Shown: positions 2,481 to 19,473 of the stretch, piece by piece | How positions within the stretch are numbered: the first letter of the stretch is position 1 | Layout of the letters: each line of letters begins with the position of its first letter | IMG/VR virus record: IMGVR_UViG_3300036853_000057 | Span: 1-21,782 of that record | Strand: one strand, 5' to 3' | DNA from: a virus | Length of the DNA stretch: 21,782 nt | Position numbers and translations under genes: made by a program | The notes under the pieces: model-generated | What the model saw: only the letters and a program-made list of their open reading frames with translations | Told to the model about the DNA's origin: nothing | The model's database searches: none

Positions 2481-2481
2481 A

Positions 2482-2500: not shown

Positions 2501-2584
2501 AATGATCCTTGTTAACGCTGGCGATTTATCGCAAATTCTTTTTCTACCCATCATTTAGCCCATCACAGAGGCATCGCTAAGACC

Positions 2585-2965: not shown

Positions 2966-2966
2966 G

Positions 2967-3680
2967 GTGCGTCGCGCGCTCGGCTACGCTCTGCTGCTGG
3001 TCACGAGTTGGCTGGGCGTTGCGTTTGGGCAGTATGCGGGCCCGGCAATCCTGAGCAGCGTAAGCCAGCTCCCGGCAATCGCGGCGAGCACGTTTTTGTG
3101 CAACAGCACGGCGGGGACTGCGGCGCCAACGGCATGCACGCTAGGGGCGAATGTTGCGACGGCGCTGGGAACGCCATCTTCGGCAAATTTAGCGGCAGCG
3201 GTAACGGACGAGACGGGCACCGGTTCGTTGATGTTTGCCATCAACCCGGTTGAGGGTTCGGTCCATCAGGCGGCGTTTTCGGTTACCACAAATACCAGCT
3301 TGGCGAGCATCAGCGGCCTTAGCCAGGCGTTGACGGCATCTGGCACCTATTCGTGCAATGGGTTTATGCACTTCACGACGGCATCGACGACATCGAACGG
3401 CGTAAAGGTCGCGTTGGCAACGTCGGACACACTGACGATTACGACGCTGAATTTTACTGCGATCGGGTTTAACGGAGCGGCATTTGCGACATCCGGCACG
3501 GGCACGGCGACGGCGCTCGGGTCGACAGCGGTGAATTCGCTCCAGGCTTACACTGATATCATTTTGCAGGGGATCATTGTGGTGAATGCGGCCGGCACGT
3601 TGCAGGTGCAGATCGCCGAAAACACATCATCCGGCACGATCGCGGGTAATGCGAGATGGGAATGCCACCGAGCCGCATAA
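2967..3680 (+). CDS. Exported fibre-like protein
   Basis: The preferred start is GTG 2967, one base after the previous stop, with GAGGG eight bases upstream. A TTG at 2952 in the same frame would add five residues. The product is 237 residues. Residues 1-21 (MRRALGYALLLVTSWLGVAFG) form a Sec signal. The segment LGTPSSANLAAAVTDETGTG (about residues 66-85) is a motif met repeatedly in phage tail-fibre and receptor-binding proteins. The rest is Thr/Ser/Ala-rich and probably beta-structured, with four cysteines. It likely forms a fibrous or adhesin-like domain, either on the virion or at the host surface. The exact function is unknown. Confidence 0.74.
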   Translation: MRRALGYALLLVTSWLGVAFGQYAGPAILSSVSQLPAIAASTFLCNSTAGTAAPTACTLGANVATALGTPSSANLAAAVTDETGTGSLMFAINPVEGSVHQAAFSVTTNTSLASISGLSQALTASGTYSCNGFMHFTTASTTSNGVKVALATSDTLTITTLNFTAIGFNGAAFATSGTGTATALGSTAVNSLQAYTDIILQGIIVVNAAGTLQVQIAENTSSGTIAGNARWECHRAA

Positions 3681-3859
3681 TCCGCGCTGTGGCGTTCGCG
3701 GCGTTCCTTGGGGTACTGGCGATTGGCGGTCACGCGGCGGCGCAGATCGTCTTCGGCCTGGCTGCGGGTGGCGGCTCATCGCCTCCAGCGACTTGCGGCA
3801 ACGCGCTCGATTTCTCTGACGGCTGCAATTCGCAATATCTGGGGATGATGAGATTATGA
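3656..3859 (+). CDS. Short exported protein
   Basis: This 67-residue protein overlaps the 3' end of the previous gene by 25 bases, and its stop overlaps the next start as ATGA. The N-terminal 30 residues (RIIRAVAFAAFLGVLAIGGH followed by AAAQ) form a Sec signal with an Ala-x-Ala cleavage site. Only about 37 residues remain, with a Gly/Ser/Pro stretch and two cysteines (ATC, DGC). ATG codons at 3656 and 3662 are both possible starts. No family is recognised. The tight overlaps on both sides argue that it is translated. It might be a periplasmic linker or a very small secreted protein. Confidence 0.6.
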   Translation: MGMPPSRIIRAVAFAAFLGVLAIGGHAAAQIVFGLAAGGGSSPPATCGNALDFSDGCNSQYLGMMRL

Positions 3860-4137
3860 GGCGACTCGCGTTAGCGGCGGCATTTTGTGCGATAGGATTG
3901 CCGGTGTTGGCAGCAGATGAACCTCCGCAAGCTGCGATGATGTCGAAGGCGATGGCCGAGCTTCAGCAGCAACGCAATCGCGCCCAGGACGATGCGGTGA
4001 ATGCGAAGGTCGAGGCGGGGATTTACGCCGACAGGCTGGCTCAAATACAACAGCAATTGAAGGCCGCTCAGGACAAGATTGCTGAGCTTGAAAAGCCGGC
4101 GGCTCCGAAGCCGGAAGCCAAGGAGTCACCGAAATGA
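3856..4137 (+). CDS. Exported coiled-coil protein
   Basis: This 93-residue protein starts at an ATG sharing ATGA with the previous stop and ends with another ATGA shared with the next gene. Residues 1-20 (MRRLALAAAFCAIGLPVLAA) are a Sec signal; its only cysteine lies there, so the mature protein has none. Residues 30-78 are a Gln/Glu/Ala/Lys-rich amphipathic helix (ELQQQRNRAQDDAVNAKVEA, then RLAQIQQQLKAAQDKIAELE) expected to form a coiled coil. The tail is Pro/Lys/Glu-rich. Periplasmic coiled coils recall spanins, but there is no lipobox or inner-membrane anchor and no lysis gene nearby. A trimerising or tethering partner for the neighbouring fibre-like proteins is an alternative. Confidence 0.72.
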   Translation: MRRLALAAAFCAIGLPVLAADEPPQAAMMSKAMAELQQQRNRAQDDAVNAKVEAGIYADRLAQIQQQLKAAQDKIAELEKPAAPKPEAKESPK

Positions 4138-6443
4138 TGCGTCGCGCTCTATTTCTCGCTGCGGTCGGGCTTCTGGCGTTAGTTGGCGTTGCTCGTGCTG
4201 ACGTTGCGGTAACGGCCGGCAGCGGCACGACCATCTTCGACTTCACGTGCTTCACCACGAAGCATTGCCCGGCTGCTGTTGTCGTAAATTCGGCCGGCAC
4301 TGAGATCCTAACGTCGAGCAATCCCGGTACAGTTACGGGGTCGGGAACGGCGGGGACTGCGGCGACTGGCGTGCTTACGGTGCAGGGCATCGCCTCGATG
4401 ACCAAGCTGTTGGTCACGCCGGACGCAAATAGCGCGGTCAATATGGCCCAAGTAGCGGGCACGACGGCGGATACGAACTCGGGTACTAAGAGTGCGGGCA
4501 CGCTCCGCGTGGTGTTGGCCACAGATCAGCCGGCATTGACGAATAAGCTGCTGGTGACGCCGGATTTGCCGTCGGGGGCGTCGACCGCGGCTAAGCAGCC
4601 GGCGCTTGGCACGGCTGGCTCGGCTTCGACGGATGTTATTAGCGTGCAGGGCATCGCGTCGATGACGCCGATGCTTGTTAACCCTGGCACGGCAGCGAAC
4701 TGGGGTGTGGGGGCGACCGGATCGGCTGTTCCCGCTAACGGTGCGTATCAGGGGGTCAACGTCGCAGGTAATCTTCGCGGTATTACCGGGCTTTCGTTGG
4801 GAACCACGTTCTCGCCAACGGTTGCGATTGTCGATGCTTCCGGTAACCAAATCACCGCGTTTGGCGGGTCTGGAGGTACGGCGTCGAATTTCGGTTCAGC
4901 TTTCCCATCATCGGGCACTGCCATCGGCCTGAGTGACGGCACGAATATGCGGGGATGGTTGAATGCCGCGAACGCGCTCAATTCAACTGGCACGGGGATT
5001 GGCACGGCTCAGATTGTGGGTCAGTTTGACGACGTTGCGCCGACAGCGATCACGGAGAACCAGTTCGGTAATCTCCGCATGTCGACTAATCGTAATTTGT
5101 ATGGGACGATCCGAGATGCGGCAGGCAACGAGCGCGGCGTCAATGTCAACGCCTCAAATCAGATGTCGGTATCGTTGGACGGCGGCACTGGTGCGACTGT
5201 TACGGCCAACGCCGGCACGAACCTGAACACAAGCGCTTTGGCGCTCGAAAGCGGCGGCAATCTTGCAACCGTAGCGGGGCACATTGTCTCGCAGGGGACG
5301 GCGCTCGGGACGATCAAGAACGCGCTGATTGGCGGCTCGGTTACCACTGCCTCGCCAACGTACACGACGGGGCAGATTAACCCGCTTAGCCTCGATACGT
5401 CTGGCAATTTGCGGGTCAACGTCGTTACCGGCGGCACGAGTGGCGTTGTCACGCAAGGGTCAACCACGTCTGGCCAGTCCGGCATGATGGTGCAGGGCGC
5501 GGTAACGACTTCCGCGCCAACATATACGACAGCTCAAACCAACCCGTTGAGTTTGACGACAGCGGGAGGGCTCCGCACCGATACCGCGACGCTGGCAGGA
5601 ACGGCGGTTGCGACCAATAGCGGAAACAAGGATGGGGGAACGGCTAGGGTTGTCATTGCGACCGATCAGCCGGCGCTAACAAACGCCCAGCCTGGTAACT
5701 TCACGCAGATTGGCGGCGTCTCTGTCTCGACGGGGACGGGCGCTGTGGGCACTGGTTCGCAGCGGGTTGCGGTTGGCACGGATACCGCAACGATTGCGGG
5801 CAGCGCTCCCGGCACGGCAGGCACGGCATCGACAAACGTCATCAGCGTGCAGGGTATCGCGTCGATGACTAAGTTGCTGGTGACGCCGGACGCTAACAGT
5901 GCGGTTAATCTTGCGCAGGTTGCCGGTACGACCACTTCGGTCACGAGCGGCAACAAGGACAACGGCACGCAACGCGTTGCTATCGCAACCGATGATGTTG
6001 CGCATGCGACCTGGGGCCAGGGTGCGACTGGATCGGCGCCGCCATCCGGGGCGGTTTATATGGGGGCTAACGGATCGGGCGCGACGGGCGGTCAGATGCG
6101 TGGGCTCATTACCTGCGACAGCCACGCAAAATATGACGCATCAGACAACGGCTCGATCACGATGGTAACGGGCGTGTCGTCTCGGAAGGTATACATCTGC
6201 GGGTTTATTCTTGCGACGGGCGGCACGGCGACGAACCTGAAGCTGCGCGAGGGATCGGACGCCAATTGCGCGACTAGCGGCGCGGACCTGACGCCGGCCT
6301 ATCAGCTCGTGGCAAACGACAAGATCGGCATGCAATCGCCATTCTGGGGCGGTTTAGTGGTTTCGACAAATGCCTATTACGTTTGCGTCAACGCTTCGGC
6401 TGGCAACGCGCACCAGGCAGAGCTTTGGTATACTATTCTGTGA
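4134..6443 (+). CDS. Exported repeat-rich fibre/adhesin-like protein
   Basis: This 769-residue protein has a Sec signal at residues 1-23 (MMRRALFLAAVGLLALVGVA, then RAD). The mature chain is a Thr/Gly/Ala/Ser-rich series of degenerate beta repeats. One unit, VQGIASMTKLLVTPDANSAV (residues 83-102), recurs almost unchanged near residue 572, and a shorter version occurs near 171. A second unit of the form NSGxKxxGTxRVVxATDQPALTN follows it and recurs near 490 and 610. Such GNKDxGTxRV repeats are familiar from phage tail or baseplate-associated proteins. Six cysteines lie only at the two ends (two near 40-50, four in the last 125 residues), suggesting disulfide-stabilised caps. The C-terminal domain could be the binding head. 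Start and stop overlap the neighbours (ATGA, GTGA). Confidence 0.77.
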   Translation: MMRRALFLAAVGLLALVGVARADVAVTAGSGTTIFDFTCFTTKHCPAAVVVNSAGTEILTSSNPGTVTGSGTAGTAATGVLTVQGIASMTKLLVTPDANSAVNMAQVAGTTADTNSGTKSAGTLRVVLATDQPALTNKLLVTPDLPSGASTAAKQPALGTAGSASTDVISVQGIASMTPMLVNPGTAANWGVGATGSAVPANGAYQGVNVAGNLRGITGLSLGTTFSPTVAIVDASGNQITAFGGSGGTASNFGSAFPSSGTAIGLSDGTNMRGWLNAANALNSTGTGIGTAQIVGQFDDVAPTAITENQFGNLRMSTNRNLYGTIRDAAGNERGVNVNASNQMSVSLDGGTGATVTANAGTNLNTSALALESGGNLATVAGHIVSQGTALGTIKNALIGGSVTTASPTYTTGQINPLSLDTSGNLRVNVVTGGTSGVVTQGSTTSGQSGMMVQGAVTTSAPTYTTAQTNPLSLTTAGGLRTDTATLAGTAVATNSGNKDGGTARVVIATDQPALTNAQPGNFTQIGGVSVSTGTGAVGTGSQRVAVGTDTATIAGSAPGTAGTASTNVISVQGIASMTKLLVTPDANSAVNLAQVAGTTTSVTSGNKDNGTQRVAIATDDVAHATWGQGATGSAPPSGAVYMGANGSGATGGQMRGLITCDSHAKYDASDNGSITMVTGVSSRKVYICGFILATGGTATNLKLREGSDANCATSGADLTPAYQLVANDKIGMQSPFWGGLVVSTNAYYVCVNASAGNAHQAELWYTIL

Positions 6444-7369
6444 TCCGCGCTGCGGCGTTTCTCTTAGGGCTGCTGGTCCCCGCTCTTGCGCTTGGACAAG
6501 GCATGCTCCTGCCACTCACGGGAGCTGGTGGCAAGGCGCATGTTGCGACAGGTGGCGGCGGCTATACAGGCTACGTCGACAGCTTCGCTAGCCCGCTCGG
6601 CTGCTGGGGCTTCACCGCATGCAGCGCGGCTATTGGTGCGGCCAACACGTCTGCGGTGCAATGGAATTGCACCAATGGCGGCGCGCAGAGCGGAACGCTC
6701 CACGTAACTTCGACGGGCGGCCTGAACGCGTCTGATATTTCATCGATGAACACGGTGTGCGGGGCGCAGCCGATCACGGTTCAGTTGACGAACCAGATGA
6801 ACCCCGGCACTGCTGACATGACCAACGGCACGAGCGCGACGCGACCGGTTTACACGGCATCGGCAGTCAACAGCTTGCCGTGTGCGACGTTTGATGGTGC
6901 GACAACGTTTCTTGGCGCCAGCCTGACAACACTCACCGCGCAACCGTACACGATCTCGGTCGTGGCTATGAGAACCGGCAATACGTCGGCCGAGAACGAT
7001 ATTTTCGATAGCTACAACGCGGCGGGTACGACGTTCGGGTTTTTGAACTCGACGAATACCGTCTTCATGTACGCAGGATCTGTTCAGTCGACGACGGCGA
7101 GCGATAGCAATCCGCATTCGATCCAGGCGGTGTTTAATGGGGCGTCAAGCGCTCTTGATGTGGACACGGGTACGGCGAACACCGTCAATGCGGGGTCCAA
7201 CAGCCCCGATAACACAACCGTTTCGCTCGGCGCTTTTGTCAATGGCGGCACGCAGAACAACTTCCTGACCGGCAAAATATGCCGGATTGCGGTGTGGGGA
7301 TCGGCGGCGAACGGCACGCAACTGAGCAATTTGCACGGCAATGACGTGACAACATACGGCACGCCGTGA
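6440..7369 (+). CDS. Exported LamG / concanavalin-like domain protein
   Basis: The start is GTG 6440, sharing GTGA with the preceding stop. Upstream in-frame codons exist, but this start places MIRAAAFLLGLLVPALALGQ at the N-terminus as a clean Sec signal. The product is 309 residues. The middle (roughly 35-150, GCWGFTACSAA to CATFDGATTFLGA) resembles the AbfB-type beta-sandwich region found in phage receptor-binding proteins. The C-terminal 160 residues (YTISVVAMRTG, FNGASSALDVDTG, GKICRIAVWGSAANGTQLSN) match a LamG/concanavalin A-like sandwich, a sugar-binding fold. Six cysteines remain after cleavage. The role is probably glycan recognition outside the cytoplasm or on the particle. No catalytic residues can be assigned. 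Confidence 0.77.
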   Translation: MIRAAAFLLGLLVPALALGQGMLLPLTGAGGKAHVATGGGGYTGYVDSFASPLGCWGFTACSAAIGAANTSAVQWNCTNGGAQSGTLHVTSTGGLNASDISSMNTVCGAQPITVQLTNQMNPGTADMTNGTSATRPVYTASAVNSLPCATFDGATTFLGASLTTLTAQPYTISVVAMRTGNTSAENDIFDSYNAAGTTFGFLNSTNTVFMYAGSVQSTTASDSNPHSIQAVFNGASSALDVDTGTANTVNAGSNSPDNTTVSLGAFVNGGTQNNFLTGKICRIAVWGSAANGTQLSNLHGNDVTTYGTP

Positions 7370-10300
7370 TTTCTCGCCGGGCATTAGTCGGATTTACTGC
7401 GGTCGGGTTGCTGGCTGAATGTCGGCGCGCCCTAGCGGGTTTTGCTGGCGGTTTTAATCTTATTGGGGCAGGGACGTCTTCATCGGCTAGTCTAGCCACG
7501 CTGACGTTGGTTAACGATGGCGGCGGGACGATGGCGGCGGGCACGGTCTCGCCGATGTTTGGGTGGGTTTTCAAGAAGGGGGATATTCCGTCTGGTACAG
7601 CGCCGGTCTTCGATGTATCGGGAACGCCGCAGCCATACAGCTGGGGGTTGCAGACTTACTGGACGGACGGGAGCCTCAAGTTTGCCAGTTTCTTCTTCCG
7701 ATCTACCTTTTCGCTGGCCGCAAGCGCAACTCAGGACATTACGATCAAGAACGGCGGCTCGGCTCCGAGTTCTAGTTCGCGCTCGCTCGCGACCGACGTT
7801 TACAGCCAATCGATCATCGTCAATATCACAGCAGCGAATAACAGCGGCACACCGATCTCTCCTGCTAACCTTACGGGCACGATCAAGGCGTGGCTCGATA
7901 GTGCGGCAAACACAAACAACAACAATTGGCAGCAATCGCTCATCCATGACGGCGATGCCGGGCGGACGTGGAAGGTCCGCTGCCATATGTCCGCGACCAA
8001 GACGGGTTCGGCGGACGGGCAATTCGAGACTGATTTCTACGTCGCCGCACTGACGGACGGAAGCGGCAACCTTGGCGGCATCCGGCTTCTGCCGAGCGTC
8101 GTGCGGCCTTGGTACAATTCCACAAGTGGCTCAGCCAATCTCGTTTGCATTCAGCCTGATTGTTCGTTTCAGTACGGTGCTGGCCCGACTACCGTTGACA
8201 TGGTAACGGCGGGGACGATGCCGTTCACCAACAAGGTTTTTACGGTCTCGGGCGGGGTCGCATCGACTACGGCGTCGAACAATTTCTATCAGGGTGCCGA
8301 CAGCACATCGAATTACGTGCCGTGTTACGTAAAGAATTCCGGGGGGGCGCTGCCCTCGCCGTTGGCGGCGAATACTCTCTATTACGTCGGGTCAAATCAG
8401 TCGGGCGGAGCCACAAACGTCGTCACTTTCTACAGCGTGCCTGGATATTATGGTGGCCCGATCACTCTGACGACCAATGGCAGCGGAACCAATACAATCG
8501 TTCCGGTAAGCGCAATCAATCAGTACGAGCCGTTCCCGATGCCGACCACGGGCGGCCGATGGAATGAGTTTCAGGGTACGGGGTCGGGAAATACCGGCGC
8601 GTCGACAAGCCTCCGGGTCAAGATCGATCAGACTTATTGGCACTCCACCAAGTGCATCCCGCCGTTCGATCTGTCGTTGATCGGGACGGTTACCGATGAC
8701 GGATGGACCTATGATTTTACGCCCGTGAACGTCGGCCCGTATCAGTGGTCTGGGGGAACCGGCGAGCGCGCTGAACTCGGCATCATGCCGAACAATCACG
8801 TCGTTGAGTTCTTTACCCGCTCCGCGGCCGCAGATAAGGAGATGCGGGTCAGCGGGTACTCGGCGAACCATCAGCTTTTGCATATTCGCGACGCGCCGGT
8901 TGCTTTCGCCGGGGGCGGCACAGGGCAAATCCCGAACTTCAACAATGCCTCGTACACGGGGATGCCATCCCTCGTGACGGGGGCGAGCATTATTTATTAT
9001 CCAGGCTCGCCATCGAACGGGATTAACGCTCCTACGGATTATTTTGCCACCGAGGACGCAGGCACCGATCACAAGCCGTGTCCGTCGATCTGGCCTTACT
9101 TGCGCACCGGGGAGCCGCAGTTCCTCGATTGCATGATTGACGTGATGGTTGGCGCGGTTGGGCAGTTTCCGCAAGACGGGGCGACGACGCGAAACCCGAC
9201 GACGCCTTATGCGGCCTACGGGCTGGTCACGCAGTACACGTCTCAGATGCGCGTGATGGCTTGGGCCAATCGCGACCTGCAATGGGCCGCAGCGTTTTGT
9301 CCTGGCGCCAACGGAACGGGGTTGTTCTACGACGGCTCCCAATTGCCGGTGAACTTGAACGACATCGCCACGGCCAATTGCAAATGGCCGAGCGACATGA
9401 TGTCGAACGCGGGTTATGACAATTATGGCAACGCTTGCTCGTTCCACGCGACGATCAGCGGAACCACGCTCACGATGGTTTCGCTTGAACATGGGTTACT
9501 GCTGAAAGGGCAAGTGATTACGACCGGCGCCAGCGCCGGAACCACGATCGTTAGCCAATTGACTGGAACGGCCGGGGGCGCGGCGGCCGCTACTTTTCAG
9601 GTCTCGATATCGCAGACGGTCGGCTCATCGACCGCAATGGTCAGTAGCTCGACCAGCTACGTTCAAGCGCATGGCTTTTGGGTTCCGGTCAATCAGGACA
9701 TCGGTGGGGCAGCGACGTTCATCCAGGGCTTTATGCTCGGGTACATGCTCTATTCGATGTGCGTGGCAGCGGCGGCTAGGGAAGACGCCTACGCGCTGTC
9801 GTGGCTGCAAACCCAATCGACCCGTTACAACTACATGCTGAGCCAGTTCGGCGGTTGGACGATGTACGACTTGGCGGGAAACGGCTCGACCTCGGGGCCT
9901 TATCCCAGCGGTTCGTCAATCTCCTGGCCGGTTATTTCCGACGATACGCAGTTCGGCATCGCGCCTGACGTGGGGCCGCCAGGACCGTTCGGATCGATGA
10001 CGTGGAACAATACCGGGCCGACCTATTTTGCCTTTACCAGCACGAACCAGTCGGGAAGCGGTTACGTGCCGACGAACAACGATCGGTTTTACAATACCGG
10101 CGCGACGGTTCCGGCAGTCTTAAAGTCATACACCGCCTACTATGCCGGCGACGTGTCGGGGAACAATTTAAACCTCTATACCGCGCCGAACGGGGGCGGA
10201 ACAAAGTTGGTCCCGTCAAACACCGGGGCAGTGGTCACGCCCAAAGCCCTGTTCCTGTCGCCTGCCAATCCACCAGCGGCATCGACGGCTGATTACCCGA

Positions 10301-10485
10301 CGTTCGGCCCGACCGATGCGCAGGGCGAGACGGCATTGATGGACGGCGCGTTTTCGTACATGACTGCGTGCGGAGTGACGGGTATGTCGACCGTGACAAC
10401 GGACTCACGCACGCGGCGCGACAACAGCGGCGCTTATACAAACTACGCCGCCCTCCCGAAATACGCGATGCAGACGAGCTTCTAG
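7366..10485 (+). CDS. Exported PcRGLX/YetA-like polysaccharide-active protein (Tat-type signal)
   Basis: This 1039-residue protein starts at GTG 7366 (GTGA overlap). The N-terminus MISRRALVGFTAVGLLA has a twin-arginine (S-R-R-A-L) followed by a hydrophobic stretch and RALAG, a plausible Tat signal. Residues about 42-135 (FGWVFKKGDIPSGTAPVF, then YWTDGSLKFASFFF) resemble the RIFT-barrel N-domain of PcRGLX/YetA-type lyases. Residues about 560-690 and 770-835 (PCPSIWPYLRTGEPQFLDCM, QMRVMAWANRDLQWA, QDIGGAATFIQGFMLGYM) look like an alpha/alpha-toroid catalytic domain. Three stretches typical of phage fibres are embedded: near 280-370, 690-760 and 880-960. Twelve cysteines remain after the leader. 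It may cut host capsule or exopolysaccharide. Substrate and active site are not identifiable; the fold call is inference. Confidence 0.72.
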   Translation: MISRRALVGFTAVGLLAECRRALAGFAGGFNLIGAGTSSSASLATLTLVNDGGGTMAAGTVSPMFGWVFKKGDIPSGTAPVFDVSGTPQPYSWGLQTYWTDGSLKFASFFFRSTFSLAASATQDITIKNGGSAPSSSSRSLATDVYSQSIIVNITAANNSGTPISPANLTGTIKAWLDSAANTNNNNWQQSLIHDGDAGRTWKVRCHMSATKTGSADGQFETDFYVAALTDGSGNLGGIRLLPSVVRPWYNSTSGSANLVCIQPDCSFQYGAGPTTVDMVTAGTMPFTNKVFTVSGGVASTTASNNFYQGADSTSNYVPCYVKNSGGALPSPLAANTLYYVGSNQSGGATNVVTFYSVPGYYGGPITLTTNGSGTNTIVPVSAINQYEPFPMPTTGGRWNEFQGTGSGNTGASTSLRVKIDQTYWHSTKCIPPFDLSLIGTVTDDGWTYDFTPVNVGPYQWSGGTGERAELGIMPNNHVVEFFTRSAAADKEMRVSGYSANHQLLHIRDAPVAFAGGGTGQIPNFNNASYTGMPSLVTGASIIYYPGSPSNGINAPTDYFATEDAGTDHKPCPSIWPYLRTGEPQFLDCMIDVMVGAVGQFPQDGATTRNPTTPYAAYGLVTQYTSQMRVMAWANRDLQWAAAFCPGANGTGLFYDGSQLPVNLNDIATANCKWPSDMMSNAGYDNYGNACSFHATISGTTLTMVSLEHGLLLKGQVITTGASAGTTIVSQLTGTAGGAAAATFQVSISQTVGSSTAMVSSSTSYVQAHGFWVPVNQDIGGAATFIQGFMLGYMLYSMCVAAAAREDAYALSWLQTQSTRYNYMLSQFGGWTMYDLAGNGSTSGPYPSGSSISWPVISDDTQFGIAPDVGPPGPFGSMTWNNTGPTYFAFTSTNQSGSGYVPTNNDRFYNTGATVPAVLKSYTAYYAGDVSGNNLNLYTAPNGGGTKLVPSNTGAVVTPKALFLSPANPPAASTADYPTFGPTDAQGETALMDGAFSYMTACGVTGMSTVTTDSRTRRDNSGAYTNYAALPKYAMQTSF

Positions 10486-10486
10486 C
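10449..10486. repeat. 38-bp direct repeat, copy 1
   Basis: This is an exact 38-bp match to 10679-10716, offset by 230 bp. It covers the last 11 codons of the preceding gene (ALPKYAMQTSF), its TAG stop and one base. The first differing bases are at 10448/10678 and 10487/10717. Confidence 0.97.
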
Positions 10487-10487
10487 A

Positions 10488-10715
10488 ATGAGACTTTCAT
10501 CATTAGAAAAGCTCGAAGACGAGCGTTACTGTCAGACCCATGGGGCGTCATCGCTTATTACTGTCGTATGCCCATCCTGTCAGGGTGCCGGTAAATACCC
10601 AGACTACATTTCGGCGGTGTTTAAGGTGATTGAATGTCCCCGCTGTAACGGCTTGGGATATTTTTCTGAAAATCTCATCGCCCTCCCGAAATACGCGATG
10701 CAGACGAGCTTCTAG
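10488..10715 (+). CDS. Small zinc-ribbon protein carried between direct repeats
   Basis: This 75-residue protein starts at ATG 10488, two bases after the previous TAG, so translation may be coupled; no good ribosome-binding site is seen. Residues 28-58 carry two knuckles, CPSCQGAG and CPRCNGLG, spaced by 18 residues, forming the CxxCxGxG pattern of DnaJ-type zinc ribbons. An additional Cys and His lie at CQTHG. The last 11 residues, ALPKYAMQTSF, and the stop come from the second 38-bp repeat, so they are identical to the C-terminus of the preceding 1039-residue protein. The unique segment is about 46% GC by hand count (89 of 192 bases) against roughly 60% around it, suggesting a recent arrival. 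Its function is unknown; zinc and perhaps nucleic acid or protein binding are likely. Confidence 0.7.
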   Translation: MRLSSLEKLEDERYCQTHGASSLITVVCPSCQGAGKYPDYISAVFKVIECPRCNGLGYFSENLIALPKYAMQTSF

Positions 10716-10716
10716 C
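10679..10716. repeat. 38-bp direct repeat, copy 2
   Basis: This is identical to 10449-10486. It supplies the last 11 codons and stop of the small zinc-ribbon gene in the same reading register as copy 1, although the 230-bp offset is not a multiple of three. It ends four bases before the stop of the leftward microprotein gene. Confidence 0.97.
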
Positions 10717-10719
10717 TTG

Positions 10720-10797
10720 TTACCGTTTACGACGGCTAAAGAAAATCAGAACCGCCAGCGCCACAGCAAAGACTAAGCCGACCGCGTATTCGCTCAT
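10720..10797 (-). CDS. 25-residue single-span membrane microprotein
   Basis: A leftward frame begins with ATG at 10797-10795, one base after the TAG of the FkbM methyltransferase gene, and ends with TAA at 10722-10720. It encodes MSEYAVGLVFAVALAVLIFF then SRRKR. A short acidic N-terminus, one hydrophobic span of about 16 residues and a basic tail predict an inner-membrane protein with its C-terminus in the cytoplasm. The one-base gap implies translational coupling to the methyltransferase. No family is recognised. It could be a membrane anchor or partner for the upstream enzyme. The membrane-like composition and the position make chance unlikely, but expression is unproven. Confidence 0.6.
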   Translation of the reverse strand: MSEYAVGLVFAVALAVLIFFSRRKR

Positions 10798-10798
10798 G

Positions 10799-11605
10799 CT
10801 AGTCGTGAGCGTGCAGTAGGAAGAACAGGTCGCGATACCCGTGGGGCAAGAAGATCACGTTCGGTTCCATGAAGCGGTCTGGATACCATTCTGCCCTCGC
10901 ATGTATTTCCGGATCGAATTCGGCAAACGGACGATACCGTCCTTCAAAGCAGAACCAGCCTATGTAGCCCAAGTCAAGCACGGGCTTGAACATCTCTAGG
11001 AACGGCTTCGGATAGAGCAGCGGTGTTATTTCGGTGAGGATCGTCGGCTTACGGTGTTTGATGGTCCACATCGCGCCGGCGATCACTTCGGTGTCGTGCT
11101 GCTCCACATCGATCTTGATGAAGCCGACATCGCCGCAGTTCTCGTCATCGATCCGCACAGTGGGAACAAGGTGCTCAATGACAGCTTCAGCCTTCTCGAA
11201 AGCCATCGAAACGCTGGCTTCTTCGTGCATCGGTCGGCCGCCTTTGACCGGGATGCGTAAGATCATCTCGCCGCACCGATCCGAGACTGCGGCGTGGCGG
11301 ACGACAATATCACCCGAGTACAGGCGATTGAGGCGGGCGGCTAAATCAGGGTTGGGTTCGTACGCATAGACGCGGCGCGAATGCCGGCGCATCCAGTAGG
11401 TGTAGGTGCCGATGTTGGCGCCGATGTCGAGCGACACGCGCTTGGGGTCACACAGGTGGCGCAGCAGGCGGATCTCCTTTTCGCCGTGCAAGTAGTGATC
11501 GGCGAACTGAAGCCGGGCGTATAGCGGTTCGGGGATCAAGTTTCTGACGGATGATTGCCACATTTGTTGCTGGTCCGAAGGTTGAGGGAGCGGAAATTCT
11601 GACAT
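10799..11605 (-). CDS. FkbM-family SAM-dependent methyltransferase
   Basis: This 268-residue enzyme is expected to transfer a methyl group from S-adenosylmethionine to a hydroxyl of a sugar or other small group. Motif I is SLDIGANIGTYT (residues 58-69), followed by the acidic ribose-binding segment YAYEPNP (about 82-88). The family signature FIKIDVEQHDTEVIAGA lies near 160-176. ATG 11605 is chosen; an in-frame TTG at 11623 would leave only eight bases to the portal start. Neither has a good ribosome-binding site. The gene runs against the late operon and is divergent from portal with a 26-base gap, so its promoter must lie inside the portal coding region. It is probably a moron-type cargo gene; its target is unknown. 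Confidence 0.85.
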   Translation of the reverse strand: MSEFPLPQPSDQQQMWQSSVRNLIPEPLYARLQFADHYLHGEKEIRLLRHLCDPKRVSLDIGANIGTYTYWMRRHSRRVYAYEPNPDLAARLNRLYSGDIVVRHAAVSDRCGEMILRIPVKGGRPMHEEASVSMAFEKAEAVIEHLVPTVRIDDENCGDVGFIKIDVEQHDTEVIAGAMWTIKHRKPTILTEITPLLYPKPFLEMFKPVLDLGYIGWFCFEGRYRPFAEFDPEIHARAEWYPDRFMEPNVIFLPHGYRDLFFLLHAHD

Positions 11606-11631
11606 GAAATTACACGAGAGCAAGGCCGGCG

Positions 11632-13176
11632 GTGCCTGACAACGCGGTTGATATCGCCCCTCTTGAACGTCGCGAGGATGAGGCCGACACGCCAGCGGGG
11701 GAAGTCAGATTTTGGATGCAGCAGCTTTCGCTTGCGGAGCGCGAGGATCGTCAATTTGTGGTGAAAGGCCGGCGGATCGTAAAGCGCTATCGGGACGAGC
11801 GGGCGCAATCGGTAAGGCAGGTCGCCAAGTTCAATATCCTGTGGTCGAACGTCGAGACTCTGAAGCCCATTCTGTACGGCCGCACGCCCAAGCCGGATGT
11901 CGAGCGCCGGCACAAGAACAGCGATCCGATTTCTCGGCTTGGGGCCGAGATTATAGAGCGCGCTCTGTCCTATGAGGATGACCTTGACGAGTTCGATAAG
12001 GTGATGCGGCGCGTGGTTGAGGACCGGCTTTTGCCCGGTCGCGGGGTGGCTCGGGTGTTCTACGAGGCTGAGTTCGGCGAAGAGGAAGAAGACGCGAGCG
12101 CGGAGCCTGATGAGGAAACCGGCGAGCGGCCGAAGTTTCGCCCGGTGAGTTCCGAGAGCGCGCCGGTGCGCTATTGGTTCTGGGAGGACTACCGGGAGAG
12201 CCCGGCGCGTGTCGACGAAGAGGTCTGGTGGAAGGCGTACCGTTCATATTTGACGCGCGACGAGCTGGTGAAGAAGTTCGGGAAAAAATACGGCAACGAA
12301 ATCACGCTCGATTACACGCCAAAAGGGCTTGGCGAGGACGGCGAGCGTGGCCCGCAGGCTGACGCCTTCAAGAAGGCTCAGATTTGGGAAATTTGGGACA
12401 AGCAGAAGAAGCGCGTCGTTTGGATTGCGTCGTCGTACAGTGATGCCCCGTGCAAGGAGATTGATGATCCGCTTGGGTTGCCGGGGTTTTTCCCTTCGCC
12501 GCGCGCATTAAAGGCAACAACCACCAATGAGACGCTGGTGCCGGTGGCGGATTACACCGAGTATCAGGACCAGGCGATTGAGTTAGATGTTTTGACGGCT
12601 CGGATCGATCGGCTGCAGAACGCCTTGAAGGTGGCAGGTCTTTATGCCGGCTCGCAGAAAGCTGAGCTTACCCAATTGCTGGACCCGAGTTCTGAAAACC
12701 AGATGATCCCCGTAGAGGATTGGGCGGCTTTCGGCGATCGGGGCGGCATTAAGGGTATGATCGAGTGGCTGCCGGTCGAGCAGATCGCGGCGGTTTTGAT
12801 TCAGCTTTATGACGCTCGCGATCGGGTGCAGCGCACGCTCTATCAGATTACCGGTATGGCTGACATCCTTCGCGGTGAGACAAACCCGAACGAAACGCTT
12901 GGCGCGCAGCAGCTTAAAAGCCAATTCGCGACCCGCAGGATTACCGAAAGCCAAAAGGATGTGGCGAGGTTTGCGCGCGATCTGATGCGGTTACGAGGGT
13001 GCGTGATTGCCCGGCATTTTTCGCCCGAGTCTTTGATGAAAATCACGGGATTGCCGGAGCCGATGCCGGCACTGCCGCCGATGCCTGAGATGATGATACC
13101 AGCGCCGCCGCCGCAAATGGCGCCCCAGGAGGGCGCTCCGGGGGCAAATGTGGTGCCGATGCGGGGAGCGACATGA
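11632..13176 (+). CDS. Portal protein
   Basis: This 514-residue protein should form the dodecameric ring at the capsid vertex through which DNA is packaged. The start is GTG 11632, with AAGG six bases upstream. Features fitting portal proteins are the N-terminal helical region with FNILWSNVETLKPILYGRTP (about 65-84), a middle wing with VRYWFWEDYRESPARVDEEVWW, and a long C-terminal helical stem region. That region includes YTEYQDQAIELDVLTARIDRL, RTLYQITGMADILRGETNPNETLGAQQLKSQFA and a Pro/Met-rich tail. The sequence resembles the portals of alphaproteobacterial podophages. It overlaps the next gene by ATGA. Position after terminase and before scaffold and capsid supports the call. Confidence 0.82.
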   Translation: MPDNAVDIAPLERREDEADTPAGEVRFWMQQLSLAEREDRQFVVKGRRIVKRYRDERAQSVRQVAKFNILWSNVETLKPILYGRTPKPDVERRHKNSDPISRLGAEIIERALSYEDDLDEFDKVMRRVVEDRLLPGRGVARVFYEAEFGEEEEDASAEPDEETGERPKFRPVSSESAPVRYWFWEDYRESPARVDEEVWWKAYRSYLTRDELVKKFGKKYGNEITLDYTPKGLGEDGERGPQADAFKKAQIWEIWDKQKKRVVWIASSYSDAPCKEIDDPLGLPGFFPSPRALKATTTNETLVPVADYTEYQDQAIELDVLTARIDRLQNALKVAGLYAGSQKAELTQLLDPSSENQMIPVEDWAAFGDRGGIKGMIEWLPVEQIAAVLIQLYDARDRVQRTLYQITGMADILRGETNPNETLGAQQLKSQFATRRITESQKDVARFARDLMRLRGCVIARHFSPESLMKITGLPEPMPALPPMPEMMIPAPPPQMAPQEGAPGANVVPMRGAT

Positions 13177-13361: not shown

Positions 13362-14074
13362 TCGGGATGCCTCCTGCTTTTGGCGGCATGGGCGCCGCTC
13401 CGGCACCACTGCAATCGCAAATGACGATCAATCCTGCTTTCCTTCAGTGGAAGCAGGCCGCCGATGCATGGATGGCGGAAAAGCAGCGCCGTGAGACTGA
13501 GTTCCGTGAAGCGTGCGAACTGATCAAAGAAGACGCCGCGACTTCCTACAAGATCGACATTGAGGCGGACAGCACCATTGCCGCTGATGAGGAGGCTGAG
13601 AAGGCTGCCCGCACCGAATTCCTGCGGGCGATCACGCCGTTTCTGGAAGCCGTCTTGCCGCAGATGCAGAGCAATCCGGCGTTGGCCCCGTTGGGCAAGG
13701 AACTGGTGATGTTCGCGGTGCGCGGGTTCCGCGTATCGCGCCAGCTTGAGGACGCCTTTGAAACGGCTCTTGATCAAATGATGAAAATGCCGCCGAAGCC
13801 GCCCGAGCAGAAGGGAAATGTCAAATCCCCGATGGAAATACAGGCTGAAGCGGCCACTGCGCAGACAAAGGCTAAGGTCGATCAGGCCAAAGTCGCCGCT
13901 GATATGGTCAAGACGCAAACCGAGGCGACGCTCAAGCAGCAGGAATTGCAGAGCGAGGAACAATATCACGCCGCGGATCTGGCGTTGCGGCAACGAGAGC
14001 TTGCCGGCAAAGAAGCGCTGCAAGCAGCTCGCATGACACATATGGCGGCGCGGGATGCGGGAGGATTGGTTTGA
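13358..14074 (+). CDS. Helical portal-associated protein
   Basis: The start ATG 13358 overlaps the previous stop and follows a good ribosome-binding site (GGCGAGG); an earlier ATG at 13298 is less likely. The 238-residue product has a Gly/Met/Pro-rich N-terminus, then WKQAADAWMAEKQRRETEFR and FLRAITPFLEAVLPQM helices. The C-terminal half is long, charged and alanine-rich (KTQTEATLKQQELQSEEQYH), very likely a coiled coil. This pattern resembles the C-terminal extensions or partners of portal proteins in related phages. It may belong to the portal vertex or assist assembly. No enzyme motif is visible and the specific role is unknown. Confidence 0.68.
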   Translation: MIGMPPAFGGMGAAPAPLQSQMTINPAFLQWKQAADAWMAEKQRRETEFREACELIKEDAATSYKIDIEADSTIAADEEAEKAARTEFLRAITPFLEAVLPQMQSNPALAPLGKELVMFAVRGFRVSRQLEDAFETALDQMMKMPPKPPEQKGNVKSPMEIQAEAATAQTKAKVDQAKVAADMVKTQTEATLKQQELQSEEQYHAADLALRQRELAGKEALQAARMTHMAARDAGGLV

Positions 14075-14253
14075 CTAAGTGGGATTACTGTCTGCGATCT
14101 GGAATCGATATGCACCAAGAAGGTCTGCTTGACGCTCTCGGCCGAGATGGTTGGGAACTTGTTGGGTTTGACGCCAGCGGAACGGCTTTCTTTAAGAGGG
14201 CCATTGAGGAAAGCCAGAAACAGCTGGCCAAGCCGAGGCGGCGCTCGAAATGA
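14071..14253 (+). CDS. DUF4177-like small protein
   Basis: This 60-residue protein starts at TTG 14071, sharing TTGA with the previous stop; the adjoining GGAGGATTGG gives a ribosome-binding site. The core LLDALGRDGWELVGFDASGT followed by AFFKR (residues 19-43) fits the DUF4177 pattern, in which a helix leads to G-W-E-L-V and a strand ending in F-K-R. The tail is basic (KPRRRSK). DUF4177 proteins are small alpha/beta proteins of unknown role, common in phages. It overlaps the next gene by ATGA. Confidence 0.68.
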   Translation: MTKWDYCLRSGIDMHQEGLLDALGRDGWELVGFDASGTAFFKRAIEESQKQLAKPRRRSK

Positions 14254-14576
14254 GCCGCACCCGCGAAGTCCTCCGTAATGGTGTCTGGTATCAAATCGAC
14301 ACCGAAGCGCCGCTCCCGCCTCGGAAGACGCCGTACATCATGCGGGATATCAGCGACTATCGATCGGCCATCACAGGTGAGACGATAACCTCTCGCTCAG
14401 CGCACCGGGATCATTTGCGGGCACATAATTGTGTCGAGGTCGGTAATGAGATGCCGCGGAATGAAGCCCCGGATTTGCCACCTATTCGCGATGATTTGAT
14501 CCGCGCCGCGCAGGCGTCGCCGGAGATGCGGGCTGAGGCTGCGACCGTTGCCCGAGCTGCGGCGGCGGTTGAGTAA
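14250..14576 (+). CDS. Conserved phage-type hypothetical protein
   Basis: This 108-residue protein starts at an ATG sharing ATGA with the previous stop. The central segment YRSAITGETITSRSAHRDHL (about 37-56), followed by RAHNCVEVGNE, is a pattern met in small proteins upstream of capsid genes in many phages. In these, a strand pair T-G-x-x-I-x-S-R precedes a helix with H-R-x-x-L and a C-x-E-V-G-N turn. The C-terminal 40 residues are Ala/Glu-rich and helical. Its function is unknown. The gene ends 20 bases before the scaffold gene. Confidence 0.68.
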   Translation: MSRTREVLRNGVWYQIDTEAPLPPRKTPYIMRDISDYRSAITGETITSRSAHRDHLRAHNCVEVGNEMPRNEAPDLPPIRDDLIRAAQASPEMRAEAATVARAAAAVE

Positions 14577-14596
14577 AACCACTTCATAGAGGACAC

Positions 14597-15832
14597 ATGG
14601 ACGACGAAAACGATGTCGGCACTGCTAACGAGCAGCCAGCCGATTTACGGTCTGTTTTAAGCCAAGCATTGGAAGAACAGCGCGCGCCTGACACTGGAGC
14701 TACGAGCGAGCAATCTTCTGGCGCTGCGGATGATAGTGCGGCTCCTGCGGAGAGCCGCGCACGCGATGCGTCCGGCCGCTTTGCTCGCAAAACTGAGGGT
14801 GAGGAAGGAGCTGCCGATACGGACGCGGCGTCGGCTGAAACAAAGCCGGCTAGCGAGACGCAGCCGAAGACCGAGGGGGAGACTGCGGCCGAAGCCGCGG
14901 CAACGGGTGGCGCAGAAGCTCCTGTGCATTGGAGCGCCGCGGACAAGGAAAGGCTCAATGCGCTGCCCGCAGAAGCACGCCCGCTGGTTCTTGATTTCAC
15001 CCGGCGGATGGAAGCGGCCTTCACGCCGAAGCTACAGCGGCTAGCATCTTACGAGCGGGATTACCAAGGGGTTCCGGAACTTTTTGCACCACATGCCGAG
15101 GCGATGCGCCAGGCTGGGACAAATCCCGGCCGTGTGATCCAGACATGGGCGGCTATCGAGCAGGGATTGCTGGGTGCCAAGACGGCTGCAGAGCGCGGTC
15201 AGCGCGACGAGAACGGCGCGGCCATCGTCGCTCGGATGATCGAGAATTATCGGATCGATCCCGCCCACGTCGCCGAAGTTTTGGTTGCCATGAAAAATGG
15301 GCAACGGCCGCCGTCGAATGGACATCAAAACGGTGCACAATACCGCGATCCTCGCGTTGACGATCTGAGCCGTCAGTTGAATGAGCTTTCGGACGCCGAA
15401 AAGCGGCGCCAAGAGGAAGCCGAGAATGCTCGCATTGCGGCCACGCAACGACAGATAGACACGTTTGCGAACGAAAAGGATGCGCAAGGTAATCTGAAGC
15501 ATCCGTTTTTTGCCGATCTTCACCAAGACATGACCGCGCTCGCTGCTGCTGATGCGCAGTTGGGTAAGTCGATCAATCTCGCCGATCTATATGAACGTGC
15601 AGTTTACGCCAACCGGGAAACTCGGACAAAGCTTCTCAGCGCCGATAAGGAGGTTGAGGCAAAGCGTTTGGCGAGCGAGCGGAGGGCAAAAGCAGAGGCC
15701 GCCCAGCGCGCCTCGTCAAGCGTCACCGGCTCTGCGGGAGCCGGCCAGTCGCCTAGCGAGCGCCGCCCAGGCTCCGGCTCTGTTCGTGACGCCCTGGTGG
15801 CCGCGGTTAAGGAGCATTCCGACGCTGCGTAA
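14597..15832 (+). CDS. Capsid scaffold-like protein
   Basis: This 411-residue acidic protein lies directly upstream of the capsid gene, the usual place for the scaffold that guides coat assembly and is then lost. AGAGGA lies just before the ATG. Residues 1-105 are disordered, rich in Ala, Glu, Thr, Ser and Asp. Residues about 110-250 form a helical region (VHWSAADKERLNALPAEARP, FTRRMEAAFTPKLQRLASYE). Residues 255-380 are a charged helix (LSRQLNELSDAEKRRQEEAE). The C-terminus (GSVRDALVAAVKEHSDAA) is a short basic/amphipathic helix, the type of end that binds coat in P22-like scaffolds. The low-complexity sequence prevents a firm family assignment; position and architecture carry the call. Confidence 0.7.
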   Translation: MDDENDVGTANEQPADLRSVLSQALEEQRAPDTGATSEQSSGAADDSAAPAESRARDASGRFARKTEGEEGAADTDAASAETKPASETQPKTEGETAAEAAATGGAEAPVHWSAADKERLNALPAEARPLVLDFTRRMEAAFTPKLQRLASYERDYQGVPELFAPHAEAMRQAGTNPGRVIQTWAAIEQGLLGAKTAAERGQRDENGAAIVARMIENYRIDPAHVAEVLVAMKNGQRPPSNGHQNGAQYRDPRVDDLSRQLNELSDAEKRRQEEAENARIAATQRQIDTFANEKDAQGNLKHPFFADLHQDMTALAAADAQLGKSINLADLYERAVYANRETRTKLLSADKEVEAKRLASERRAKAEAAQRASSSVTGSAGAGQSPSERRPGSGSVRDALVAAVKEHSDAA

Positions 15833-15910: not shown

Positions 15911-16945
15911 ATGGCAAGTCCAAATAGCAATTGGGGTGAAATCACCACCACTACGCTTTACAACCGTTCCGGCGTTGTCCGGGATAATGTGAGCAAAAAC
16001 AATGCGTTACTATCTCGGCTGAGTGCGAGAGGGAAGCGTAAGCCGGTTTCCGGCGGTCAGGCGATCGTCCAGGAGATCGAATACTCGGAGAACGGCACGT
16101 ACCGCCGTTATAGCGGTTACGACACACTGTCGATCTCTCCGTCGGACGTTCTGACTGCGGCGCAGTATTCGTTCGCGCAGGCAGCGGTTGCGGTGACGAT
16201 CTCGGGTCTGGAAATGCTTCAGAACTCGGGGGAGGACAAGATGCTCGACTTGCTTGAGCAACGCATCGGCAATGCTGAACGCACCTTCCGCAACAACCTG
16301 TCGTCCGACTGCTACAGCGACGGAACGGCCGATGGCGGCAAGCAGATCGGCGGTCTGCAACTGCTCGTGGCGGACGTTCCGACTTCCGGCACGGTCGGCG
16401 GCATCAGCCGTACCACCTGGCCGTTCTGGCGGAACAATTACCAGTCGTTTGCTACGGCCGGTTTGGCGCCGGGTGCCGCGACGATCCAGACGATGATGAA
16501 TAGGACTTGGCTGGCGCAGGCTCGCGGTCCCGATCGCCCGGATCTGATCATCGCCGACAACACCTATTTCCGGTACTACTGGGAGTCGCTGCAAGCCATC
16601 CAGCGCATCAGCTCGGCTGATACTGCAATGGCCGGTTTCGGCTCGCTTAAGTTCATGGATGCCGATGTCGTGTACGACGGCGGTTTCCAGGGTGTCGCTG
16701 CCGGTCAGGGCACGGTGATTGACGGCAACGGGATCACATGGACTTCGGGTCAGGGTGCCCCAGCGAGTCACATGTATTTCCTCAACACCGACTACATCTA
16801 TTTCCGCCCGCATCGGGACCGCGACATGGTTCCGCTTGATCCGGAAAGGTATTCGGTCAATCAGGACGCAATGGTTCGGTTGATGGCATTTGCCGGCAAC
16901 ATGACCATGAGCAACGCATTTCTGCAAGGCGTGCTCACGGCATAG
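15911..16945 (+). CDS. Major capsid protein
   Basis: This 344-residue protein should form the icosahedral shell, probably with an HK97-like fold. The ATG follows GGAG at normal spacing. The order fits known phage coat proteins of this type: N-arm MASPNSNWGEITTTTLYNRS, then the P-domain/E-loop part VSGGQAIVQEIEYSENGTYR and a helix around MLDLLEQRIGNAERTFRNNL. Next is the strongly conserved GTADGGKQIGGLQ (about 138-150), then SRTTWPFWRN, and a C-terminal region with YIYFRPHRDRDMVPLDPERY. Position after scaffold and before a decoration-like gene agrees. It has one cysteine. It should be the most abundant product and has its own structured leader. Confidence 0.87.
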   Translation: MASPNSNWGEITTTTLYNRSGVVRDNVSKNNALLSRLSARGKRKPVSGGQAIVQEIEYSENGTYRRYSGYDTLSISPSDVLTAAQYSFAQAAVAVTISGLEMLQNSGEDKMLDLLEQRIGNAERTFRNNLSSDCYSDGTADGGKQIGGLQLLVADVPTSGTVGGISRTTWPFWRNNYQSFATAGLAPGAATIQTMMNRTWLAQARGPDRPDLIIADNTYFRYYWESLQAIQRISSADTAMAGFGSLKFMDADVVYDGGFQGVAAGQGTVIDGNGITWTSGQGAPASHMYFLNTDYIYFRPHRDRDMVPLDPERYSVNQDAMVRLMAFAGNMTMSNAFLQGVLTA

Positions 16946-17504: not shown

Positions 17505-17528
17505 AGGGGGAGATAATCCCCCTCTTTT
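17505..17528 (+). terminator. Intrinsic terminator after the capsid/decoration genes
   Basis: AGGGGGA and TCCCCCT form a perfect 7-bp stem around the loop GATAA, followed by CTTTT. It begins 16 bases after the decoration gene stop and ends 22 bases before the start of the fusion-enzyme gene. The T-tract is short, so partial termination is likely, lowering expression of downstream genes relative to capsid. Confidence 0.72.
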
Positions 17529-17550
17529 GCAATTTTCTCCAAGGGTATTC

Positions 17551-19473
17551 ATGCTCCAAGCGGTCTGTGTGAACTGGCGAAATTATCAAGGTCGGGGCGT
17601 CGATTACGTCAATCGGCTCTTCGCCAGTTTGTCGCGGCACTTATCCACGGTCGCTGGCAAGTTCACGGTTTTCACCGATGCGGCTGACGAGAAATATCAC
17701 CAAGCGATCAATGTCGAGCTTCTGCCGGAAGGTTTAGAAGGGTGGTGGAACAAGCTGGCGCTCTTTGCGCCCGGTATGTTCGATCCAGGCGATCGGATCG
17801 TCTATTTCGACCTCGACACGCTCGTCATTGGCGATATGGACGAAATCGTGCGGTATGACGGCAATTTTGCTGCTCTGCAGGATTTCTACCGGCCGGACGG
17901 GCTTCAATCATCGGTGATGATGTGGCGCGCGGGTTGGGGGGCGCCGATTTGGAACGAGTGGTGTCGACAAGGGCGGCCCGACTGGCCCGGTGGCGATCAG
18001 GCGTGGATTGAGCACATCGTCGGTGACGGAGCCGATGTTCTACAGGACATATTTCCCGGTAAGTTCGTCTCCTACAAAAAGGACTGCGTACCGTTCCCGC
18101 CCGAAAGTTCTAGCGTCGTCGTCTTTCACGGCGAGCCGCGGCCGCACAATTGCGGCCGGCCGTGGGTCGAGGCGATGTGGACGGAGAGCGACACGGGGCA
18201 TTTTCAGCTTGGTATGGTCGCCAACGTTCCGTTGGAACAGATCCGGAGCCAGATCAAGCAATCGGCCGCATTGGATCTGCCGCGGCTGACATCCAAGCCG
18301 GCACATGACGGCAAGGTGGCGATCATTGGCGGCGGCCCATCGTTAAGCGATGCGATTACGATCCCGCAATTGCAGCGGTTTGCGGCTGAGGGCGGGAAGC
18401 TCTGGGCGCTCAATGGAAGTTACGACTGGTTGCGTGAGCATGATCTGGTTGCTGACGCGCATATGATCATCGATGCGCGGCCAGAGAATGTCAGGTTCCT
18501 CCGTAATTCACGGGACGAAACCCGGTATTACATCGCTTCGCAGTGCCACCCTGCGGTTTTTGAGGCGCTACGCTGGCGAGCGGCGGTTCGGCTGGACCTC
18601 GATGTTATGGGTGACTGCGGCACCACAGTTGGAACACATGCCATCTGTACGGCCTTTGTTGAAGGCTTCCGCGAAATTCACTTATTCGGGTTCGATAGTT
18701 CCTATCGTGAAGGTGAGGGCCACGCTTACCACCAGAGCATGAATGCTCAGGAGCGGATCGTAGACGCGCATATCGGTGACCGCGTGTTCAAAGCCGCGCC
18801 GTGGATGGTTCGGCAGGTACAGGATTTCGAGGGGATAGCGCGCGACGTGGTAGCGGCTGGTGGGCAGATCCATGTTCATGGTGACGGGCTTCTGCCATAT
18901 CAAGCGGATATCCTCGCAAAGGCGCCGATGCGCGCTGCTTATGTGCGGGCTCAGGAAGTATTGGGCCGGTTGCCGGGTGGCCCGGTCGTTGGTGCCGAAA
19001 TTGGCGTGTTTCGCGGCGAGATGTCGGCTTACCTATTGGCTCGCCCCGATCTTGTGCTCCACATGGTCGATAGCTGGGAAGGCGGCGGCGAGGCCTATGC
19101 GACGGACACCGGCGATTGGCATGCCGATCTCGGTAATGAAGATCAGGAAGTGTTTTTCGAGTGCGCCAAGGCACAGGTGGAGTTCGCGGGGCCTCGGGCT
19201 CTAATCCATCGGCATCGGTCTACCGATCCGGTGCCGAATGCTCCTCCGCTCGATTTCGTGTTCATCGATGCCGATCACTCTTACGAAGGCTGTAAGGCGG
19301 ATATCGAGGCGTGGCGCCAGACATTGAAGCCAGGCGGCCTGCTTTGCGGGCACGATTACGACAACACAGCATTCCCCAAGTATGGGGTGAAGAAGGCCGT
19401 TGATGAGTTTGCCGCGCGTCACGGCCTGTCGGTTGAACTGGGCGCGGATTTCACTTGGTTCATCCGGATCTGA
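17551..19473 (+). CDS. Three-domain glycan enzyme: glycosyltransferase, MptE/Maf-like and SAM methyltransferase
   Basis: This 640-residue protein starts at ATG 17551, with AAGGG five bases upstream. Residues 1-230 form a GT-A-type glycosyltransferase: VCVNWRNYQGRGVDYVNRLF, the metal-binding DLD (87-89) in YFDLDTLVIGD, and WPGGDQAWIE. Residues 250-445 match the MptE/DUF115 domain shared with flagellar Maf proteins: IIGGGPSLSDA (258-268), LDVMGDCGTTVGTHA, IHLFGFDSS. Residues 478-640 are a class I methyltransferase: GAEIGVFRGE (481-490), FVFIDADHSYEG (569-580), LKPGGLLCGHDYD. Maf proteins attach nonulosonic acids to flagellin Ser/Thr, so this enzyme may build and methylate a glycan on a protein. 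Its place right after capsid and decoration makes virion proteins candidate targets, but a host target is equally possible. All key motifs look intact. Confidence 0.82.
   Translation: MLQAVCVNWRNYQGRGVDYVNRLFASLSRHLSTVAGKFTVFTDAADEKYHQAINVELLPEGLEGWWNKLALFAPGMFDPGDRIVYFDLDTLVIGDMDEIVRYDGNFAALQDFYRPDGLQSSVMMWRAGWGAPIWNEWCRQGRPDWPGGDQAWIEHIVGDGADVLQDIFPGKFVSYKKDCVPFPPESSSVVVFHGEPRPHNCGRPWVEAMWTESDTGHFQLGMVANVPLEQIRSQIKQSAALDLPRLTSKPAHDGKVAIIGGGPSLSDAITIPQLQRFAAEGGKLWALNGSYDWLREHDLVADAHMIIDARPENVRFLRNSRDETRYYIASQCHPAVFEALRWRAAVRLDLDVMGDCGTTVGTHAICTAFVEGFREIHLFGFDSSYREGEGHAYHQSMNAQERIVDAHIGDRVFKAAPWMVRQVQDFEGIARDVVAAGGQIHVHGDGLLPYQADILAKAPMRAAYVRAQEVLGRLPGGPVVGAEIGVFRGEMSAYLLARPDLVLHMVDSWEGGGEAYATDTGDWHADLGNEDQEVFFECAKAQVEFAGPRALIHRHRSTDPVPNAPPLDFVFIDADHSYEGCKADIEAWRQTLKPGGLLCGHDYDNTAFPKYGVKKAVDEFAARHGLSVELGADFTWFIRI

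Follow-up and report, generated by a model that had tools for sequence, protein, structure and literature searches.

The stretch analyzed here (hereafter the window), a 21,782-bp linear IMG/VR contig from a tailed phage, carries a small gene of foreign composition enclosed by two identical 38-bp sequences, each of which supplies the end of a gene. We consider it probable, at roughly seven chances in ten, that this gene was captured at the junction between a 1039-aa reading frame and an FkbM-type methyltransferase gene, through two non-homologous joints overlapping by 38 bp or through an equivalent template switch. Because the same event is on record for cultured phages, the locus is best explained as a clear example of an already known route of phage gene gain and not as a new mobile element.

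A 38-bp direct repeat ends two adjacent genes

The two copies of the repeat are exact, start 230 bp apart, and leave 192 bp between them (Table 1). Among 200 order-2 Markov shuffles of the window, the longest exact repeat was 19 bp, so a chance origin of the observed 38 bp is rejected. Gapless comparison of the flanks gave identities of 18/50 and 10/50, which is chance level, and the repeat is therefore not the edge of a longer one; no third copy occurs in the window, where the next best matches reach 23/38. Both copies encode ALPKYAMQTSF followed by a stop codon, copy 1 at the end of the 1039-aa ORF and copy 2 at the end of a 75-aa ORF, and, as 230 is not a multiple of 3, each is in frame with its own gene only. 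The earlier note had described this arrangement, with an insert of about 46% GC that encodes a CxxCxGxG zinc-ribbon-type protein and no recombinase, and with the 1039-residue gene left intact; our coordinates, spacing, base composition, translations, and family searches agree with it on each point.

Table 1. Features of the proposed capture site and landmark genes of the window.
Feature	Position	Strand	Basis
Terminase large subunit	1047-2480		Profile match
1039-aa ORF, large, of unknown family, 3' end duplicated	7366-10485	+	ORF list
Repeat copy 1, likely original	10449-10486	+	Last 11 codons and stop of the 1039-aa gene plus one base; homologue C-terminus aligns through
Unique insert, 46.4% GC, holds the body of the small gene	10487-10678	+	Composition
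75-aa CxxCxGxG zinc-ribbon-type ORF	10488-10715	+	ORF list, PHROG 6060, Pfam; last 11 residues from copy 2
Repeat copy 2, likely duplicate	10679-10716	+	Repeat search
25-aa hydrophobic ORF (MSEYAVGLVFAVALAVLIFFSRRKR), converges on the site	10720-10797	-	Minus-strand translation
FkbM-type methyltransferase gene, convergent neighbor	10799-11623	-	Pfam PF05050, 54 bits, above cutoff
Portal	11632-13176		phrog_12082
Major head protein	15911-16945		phrog_9953

No inverted repeats were found at the insert ends (minimum arm 14 nt), and a consensus scan detected neither a terminator nor a promoter within the 38 bp. The copies also lack the signature of a diversity-generating retroelement, being identical, 38 bp long, and without differences at template adenines; no reverse transcriptase was present among the profile-scanned ORFs, which are part of the window's ORFs. 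A frameshift fusion of the 1039-aa and 75-aa ORFs was considered and rejected by eye, there being no in-frame X-XXY-YYZ slippery site.

The same final layout would arise if a tandem duplication of the 3' part of the 1039-aa gene had come first and the zinc gene had later taken the place of all but the last 38 bp of the second copy, and such a history would yield an exact in-frame copy without any target-duplicating insertion. We nevertheless regard it as unlikely: the flanks of the copies hold no residual similarity, two events are needed where one suffices, and 100% identity leaves little time for a replacement.

The small gene is compositionally foreign

The insert has 46.4% GC, whereas segments of its size average 59.0% (SD 3.6) along the contig and none of those sampled was lower, although the first ∼260 bp of the contig are nearly as poor in GC. 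Its sole ORF begins with an ATG 2 nt past the TAG stop of the 1039-aa gene and contains two CxxCxGxG knuckles (CPSCQGAG and CPRCNGLG), which would suffice for one DnaJ-type zinc center. Both knuckles lie upstream of the repeat, and the 11 borrowed residues come after the likely folded part. The ORF matched PHROG 6060 ("anti-termination protein Q-like") weakly (E 2.8e-6, residues 26-58) and Pfam DnaJ_CXXCXGXG (PF00684) at 24.0 bits, under the curated cutoff of 32.7, while neither PHROG nor Pfam returned a recombinase or integrase family. The product is probably a small zinc-binding accessory protein; an AlphaFold model of it (mean pLDDT 43) was unusable. Candidate relatives of the zinc protein at L001-L003, L174, and L177-L179 showed weak local matches only, mostly at the knuckles, and were set aside.

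The repeat belongs to the upstream gene

The 1039-aa protein has no match in Pfam, PHROG, or the PDB, and searching with it alone against viral contigs, genomes, phages, plasmids, and the PDB gave no credible relative. Homologues were found only in G017 (IMGVR_UViG_3300046535_000838; 39% identity across the aligned length and 44% in its best segment), a record whose MCP shares 84% identity with that of the window, and in L182 (31%), a third and more distant family member; the one in G017 surfaced only when whole records of portal and MCP relatives were searched. An AlphaFold model of the 1039-aa protein from the two-row alignment scored 26.5 and was unusable.

The G017 homologue aligns to the last residues, with ADVRNAYQDHF beside ALPKYAMQTSF of the window. 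Further, the repeat has 60.5% GC and a codon GC3 of 91%; the 1039-aa gene, with a GC3 of 71%, comes nearer to this than the remainder of the small gene does, with 48%. The GC3 values and the C-terminal alignment show that the repeat is native to the 1039-aa gene, with copy 1 most likely as the original and copy 2 as the duplicate, whereas the small gene is compositionally foreign; of the options raised in the earlier note, a repeat-mediated insertion thus draws support from both composition and homologue. Behind the G017 homologue lie other small genes and a lysozyme-like reading frame (identified by eye) but no zinc gene, and none lies directly behind the L182 homologue either; the inserted gene is therefore absent from two loci that keep its neighbor, although this neighbor is only 31-44% identical to that of the window. 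From the composition of the insert and these two homologues, we infer that the small gene was gained.

The proposed capture site lies in an accessory block

Between terminase and portal, the window holds an accessory block of ∼2.5-11.6 kb (2480-11630), made up of large genes of unknown family and the FkbM methyltransferase gene, and the small gene is near its end. The junction is convergent: on the minus strand, the 25-aa ORF that follows the FkbM gene has its stop at 10720, 3 bp past copy 2. In the presumed empty site, the last base of copy 1 would run directly into TTGTTACCG; when the flanks were joined by script, the convergent stop codons stood 4 bp apart, and nothing was disturbed. By portal, the nearest named isolates are Mx8 and Mx9 (36%) and Bradyrhizobium phage ppBjS10J-1 (36%). 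The large genes of the block (4134, 6383, and 7366) and the zinc ORF had no match in ∼170 portal- or MCP-related loci; a DNA search of isolate phages gave no match to the locus; and viral contigs, phages, and genome contigs yielded no near relative of it and no empty site. No donor of the small gene was found. Elsewhere in the window, just downstream of the head genes, a 648-aa protein (17527-19473) combines a glycosyltransferase-like region (PHROG 1962), an MptE-like region, and a methyltransferase domain.

Since the record is a single linear contig and no second assembly of the locus was found, we weighed the alternative that a chimeric assembly path crossed a single 38-bp sequence twice, with an unrelated 192-bp piece in between. 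We judge such an artefact very unlikely, because a loop in the assembly graph would require real reads running from repeat to insert and from insert to repeat, because the insert coincides precisely with a gene junction and leaves both reading frames resolved, and because equivalent layouts occur in isolate genomes and several other contigs. Indeed, having been seen in the isolates Island3 and Brujita (see below), the layout exists apart from metagenome assembly.

Boundary repeats are enriched in relatives of the window

Comparable repeats occur at other gene junctions in the nearest relatives. In G002 (IMGVR_UViG_3300036798_000278; portal 71% and MCP 78% identical to those of the window), four consecutive small genes (L213, 15302-16119) are linked by CTTACGGAGAGCGGACGATGA or variants of it, a shared junction comprising C-terminal codons, a ribosome-binding site, and an overlapping stop and start, so that unrelated small proteins end in RALTESGR, RKPLTESGR, or QPIGSGR, all with SGR. 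In addition, the first 23 bp of the G002 portal gene occur a second time, with one mismatch, and the two copies flank a 92-aa gene whose GC content is 47% where the locus has 58%. At L005 (7628-8023), the duplicated portal start forms the start of an AT-rich 92-aa gene 271 bp upstream, with a further partial copy at 7628. G017 (L220, 9578-11021) has the 5' end of one gene (MTSRLALHM) in three exact 27-bp copies interleaved with small genes, as well as 25-bp and 19-bp start-region repeats among the same small genes, and L002 has an exact 24-bp repeat spanning a stop codon, a ribosome-binding site, and a start codon.

Among isolated repeats scoring at least 17 in 144 non-redundant loci (1.85 Mb), 6 of 27 had both copies on gene boundaries, as against a mean of 0.09 and a maximum of 2 in 2000 random placements; these counts cover the window and its relatives only and rest on a simple gene caller, with the two boundaries of the zinc gene added by hand. 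A wider pass over 2.6 Mb, whose low-complexity filter probably removed Island3, gave 14 boundary repeats, of which that of the window was the longest. The comparison with random placements supports an enrichment of boundary repeats in the relatives, though not every case need be a duplication, because ribosome-binding-site and start-codon constraint alone raises similarity in several of them. Moreover, since the window repeat, with 38 bp at 100% identity, exceeds every boundary case in the relatives, the process behind it may differ from theirs in detail.

The relatives also bear on whether ALPKYAMQTSF could be a recognition or packaging tag kept by selection on both proteins, a function that the earlier note had offered as a shared C-terminal tag. 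The DNA is identical and in frame in both genes, and the unrelated small proteins of G002 likewise share a C-terminal peptide; third codon positions, however, are identical too, which peptide selection does not require, and the G002 peptide overlaps the ribosome-binding site and start codon of the next gene. Unrelated junctions carry unrelated peptides, other cases (the G002 portal start and G017) share N-termini, and a degenerate ALPKYAMQT-coding pattern hit only L017, by chance and out of any relevant frame. We therefore hold a functional tag to be highly improbable, and there is a caution here for annotators: where small phage proteins that are unrelated share the same C-terminus, it can be a scar instead of a tag.

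Further features were seen in the loci compared. At L024 (∼13990-14780), the major head protein gene is seemingly split by two related intron-like segments with 25-29 bp stretches in common (putative group I, by eye); at L013 (11158-13178), the major head protein match is broken after residue 62 by ∼1 kb, possibly another intron. L201 (15642-17734; Bradyrhizobium phage ppBjS10J-1, OP596615) has a near-identical tandem duplication of ∼1,045 bp, either real or an assembly error, and L101 (1024-1312) has a GC-rich 32-39 bp repeat in three copies, apparently away from gene ends.

Proposed route of capture

Any foreign piece must be fixed by two joints to become inserted. A replicating phage offers many copies of its genome, and joints made at differing positions on them would delete or duplicate the target. 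In the capture that we propose, (i) the left joint would have formed 1 bp past the stop of the 1039-aa gene and (ii) the right joint 38 bp upstream of it, on another phage genome copy; a replication template switch re-entering 38 bp upstream would give the same product. The overlap between the two target positions would leave the final 38 bp of the 1039-aa gene in two copies. The captured gene, cut near its own end, would then read into copy 2 and borrow its C-terminus and stop codon, while the 1039-aa gene would stay whole. Selection would keep only insertions that spare their neighbors, so a preserved 3' end would call for no site-specific recombinase. Once present, the repeats would permit precise loss by general recombination, as the recombinant single copy of Brujita illustrates.

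So far, the gain of small genes by phages without destruction of their neighbors has largely been inferred from old, blurred junctions. Those of the window look fresh, with identical copies, and, together with several more in the nearest relatives, they make the capture scar measurable in terms of which end was duplicated, over what length, and what was inserted. We also considered that this phage group might have an active process, be it a recombinase of its own or a replication mode, that inserts small foreign genes at junctions and duplicates 20-40 bp of a neighbor's start or end. This is a speculation that we think improbable; if true, genomes would grow runs of small genes with borrowed ends.

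Comparison with known systems

Although att-flanked elements restoring a gene's 3' end have a similar layout, a minimal mobile cassette integrating at a 38-bp attachment-like site with a recombinase in trans is scarcely credible, since the insert and the repeat each have no other copy in the collections searched, no inverted repeats mark the ends, and the relatives carry repeats that differ from junction to junction and enclose unrelated genes, as expected of general recombination and not of one element. The suggestion of a new kind of cassette in the earlier note is thus left unsupported: a search for the zinc segment or the repeat at other sites revealed no second insertion, and the layout of Island3 and Brujita was already published. 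Unlike a site-specific integrating element, moreover, the insert encodes no integrase or recombinase, and neither the element nor its attachment site appeared at the other loci searched.

The MPMEs of mycobacteriophages measure ∼440 bp, end in short inverted repeats, and occupy several sites. The window insert shows none of these features, and its lack of terminal inverted repeats (minimum arm 14 nt) sets it apart from a MITE as well; it is like an MPME in being a very small insertion with one small gene and no known transposase. MPMEs have been described as ultra-small mobile elements (Sampson et al. 2009, as cited in PMC3029335).

The small-gene arrays of G002 and G017 resemble the boundary sequences of lambdoid phages. 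Such sequences are common to many phages, whereas the window repeat belongs to one orphan gene and was found nowhere else. They are short, conserved, located at gene junctions, and thought to be sites of gene exchange by general recombination (Clark et al. 2001; Susskind and Botstein 1978; both as cited in PMC3029335).

Mycobacteriophage LRRHood has a 1.35-kb insertion between 29-bp direct repeats (PMC3029335). By that paper's description, there too short direct repeats bound the extra genes, relatives have a single copy of them, and one copy sits at a gene end, but the LRRHood segment comprises four genes in 1.35 kb and that of the window one gene in 192 bp.

Island3 offers the same arrangement in an isolate. 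There, a copy of the gene 67 3' end closes gene 68 (85 aa, without homologues), whose start lies at the gene 67 stop. In Brujita, 99.8% identical to Island3, a single copy is present, which follows 67 in its upstream part and 68 in its downstream part (Pope et al. 2011, PMC3029335). Our comparison of the two records placed the shared 3' ends of 67 and 68 in frame and 257 bp apart, with two mismatches in the last 47 bp, and identified the single copy of Brujita as a recombinant of both Island3 copies. The Island3 copies have diverged at a few positions around an insert of 70.6% GC and those of the window are identical around an AT-rich one; Island3 has in Brujita an empty-site relative, and none is known for the window locus. 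In both, nevertheless, the start of a small gene lies at the stop of a larger one, whose 3' end recurs in frame as the end of the small gene, at a similar spacing (257 bp in Island3, 230 bp here) and with no recombinase in either segment.
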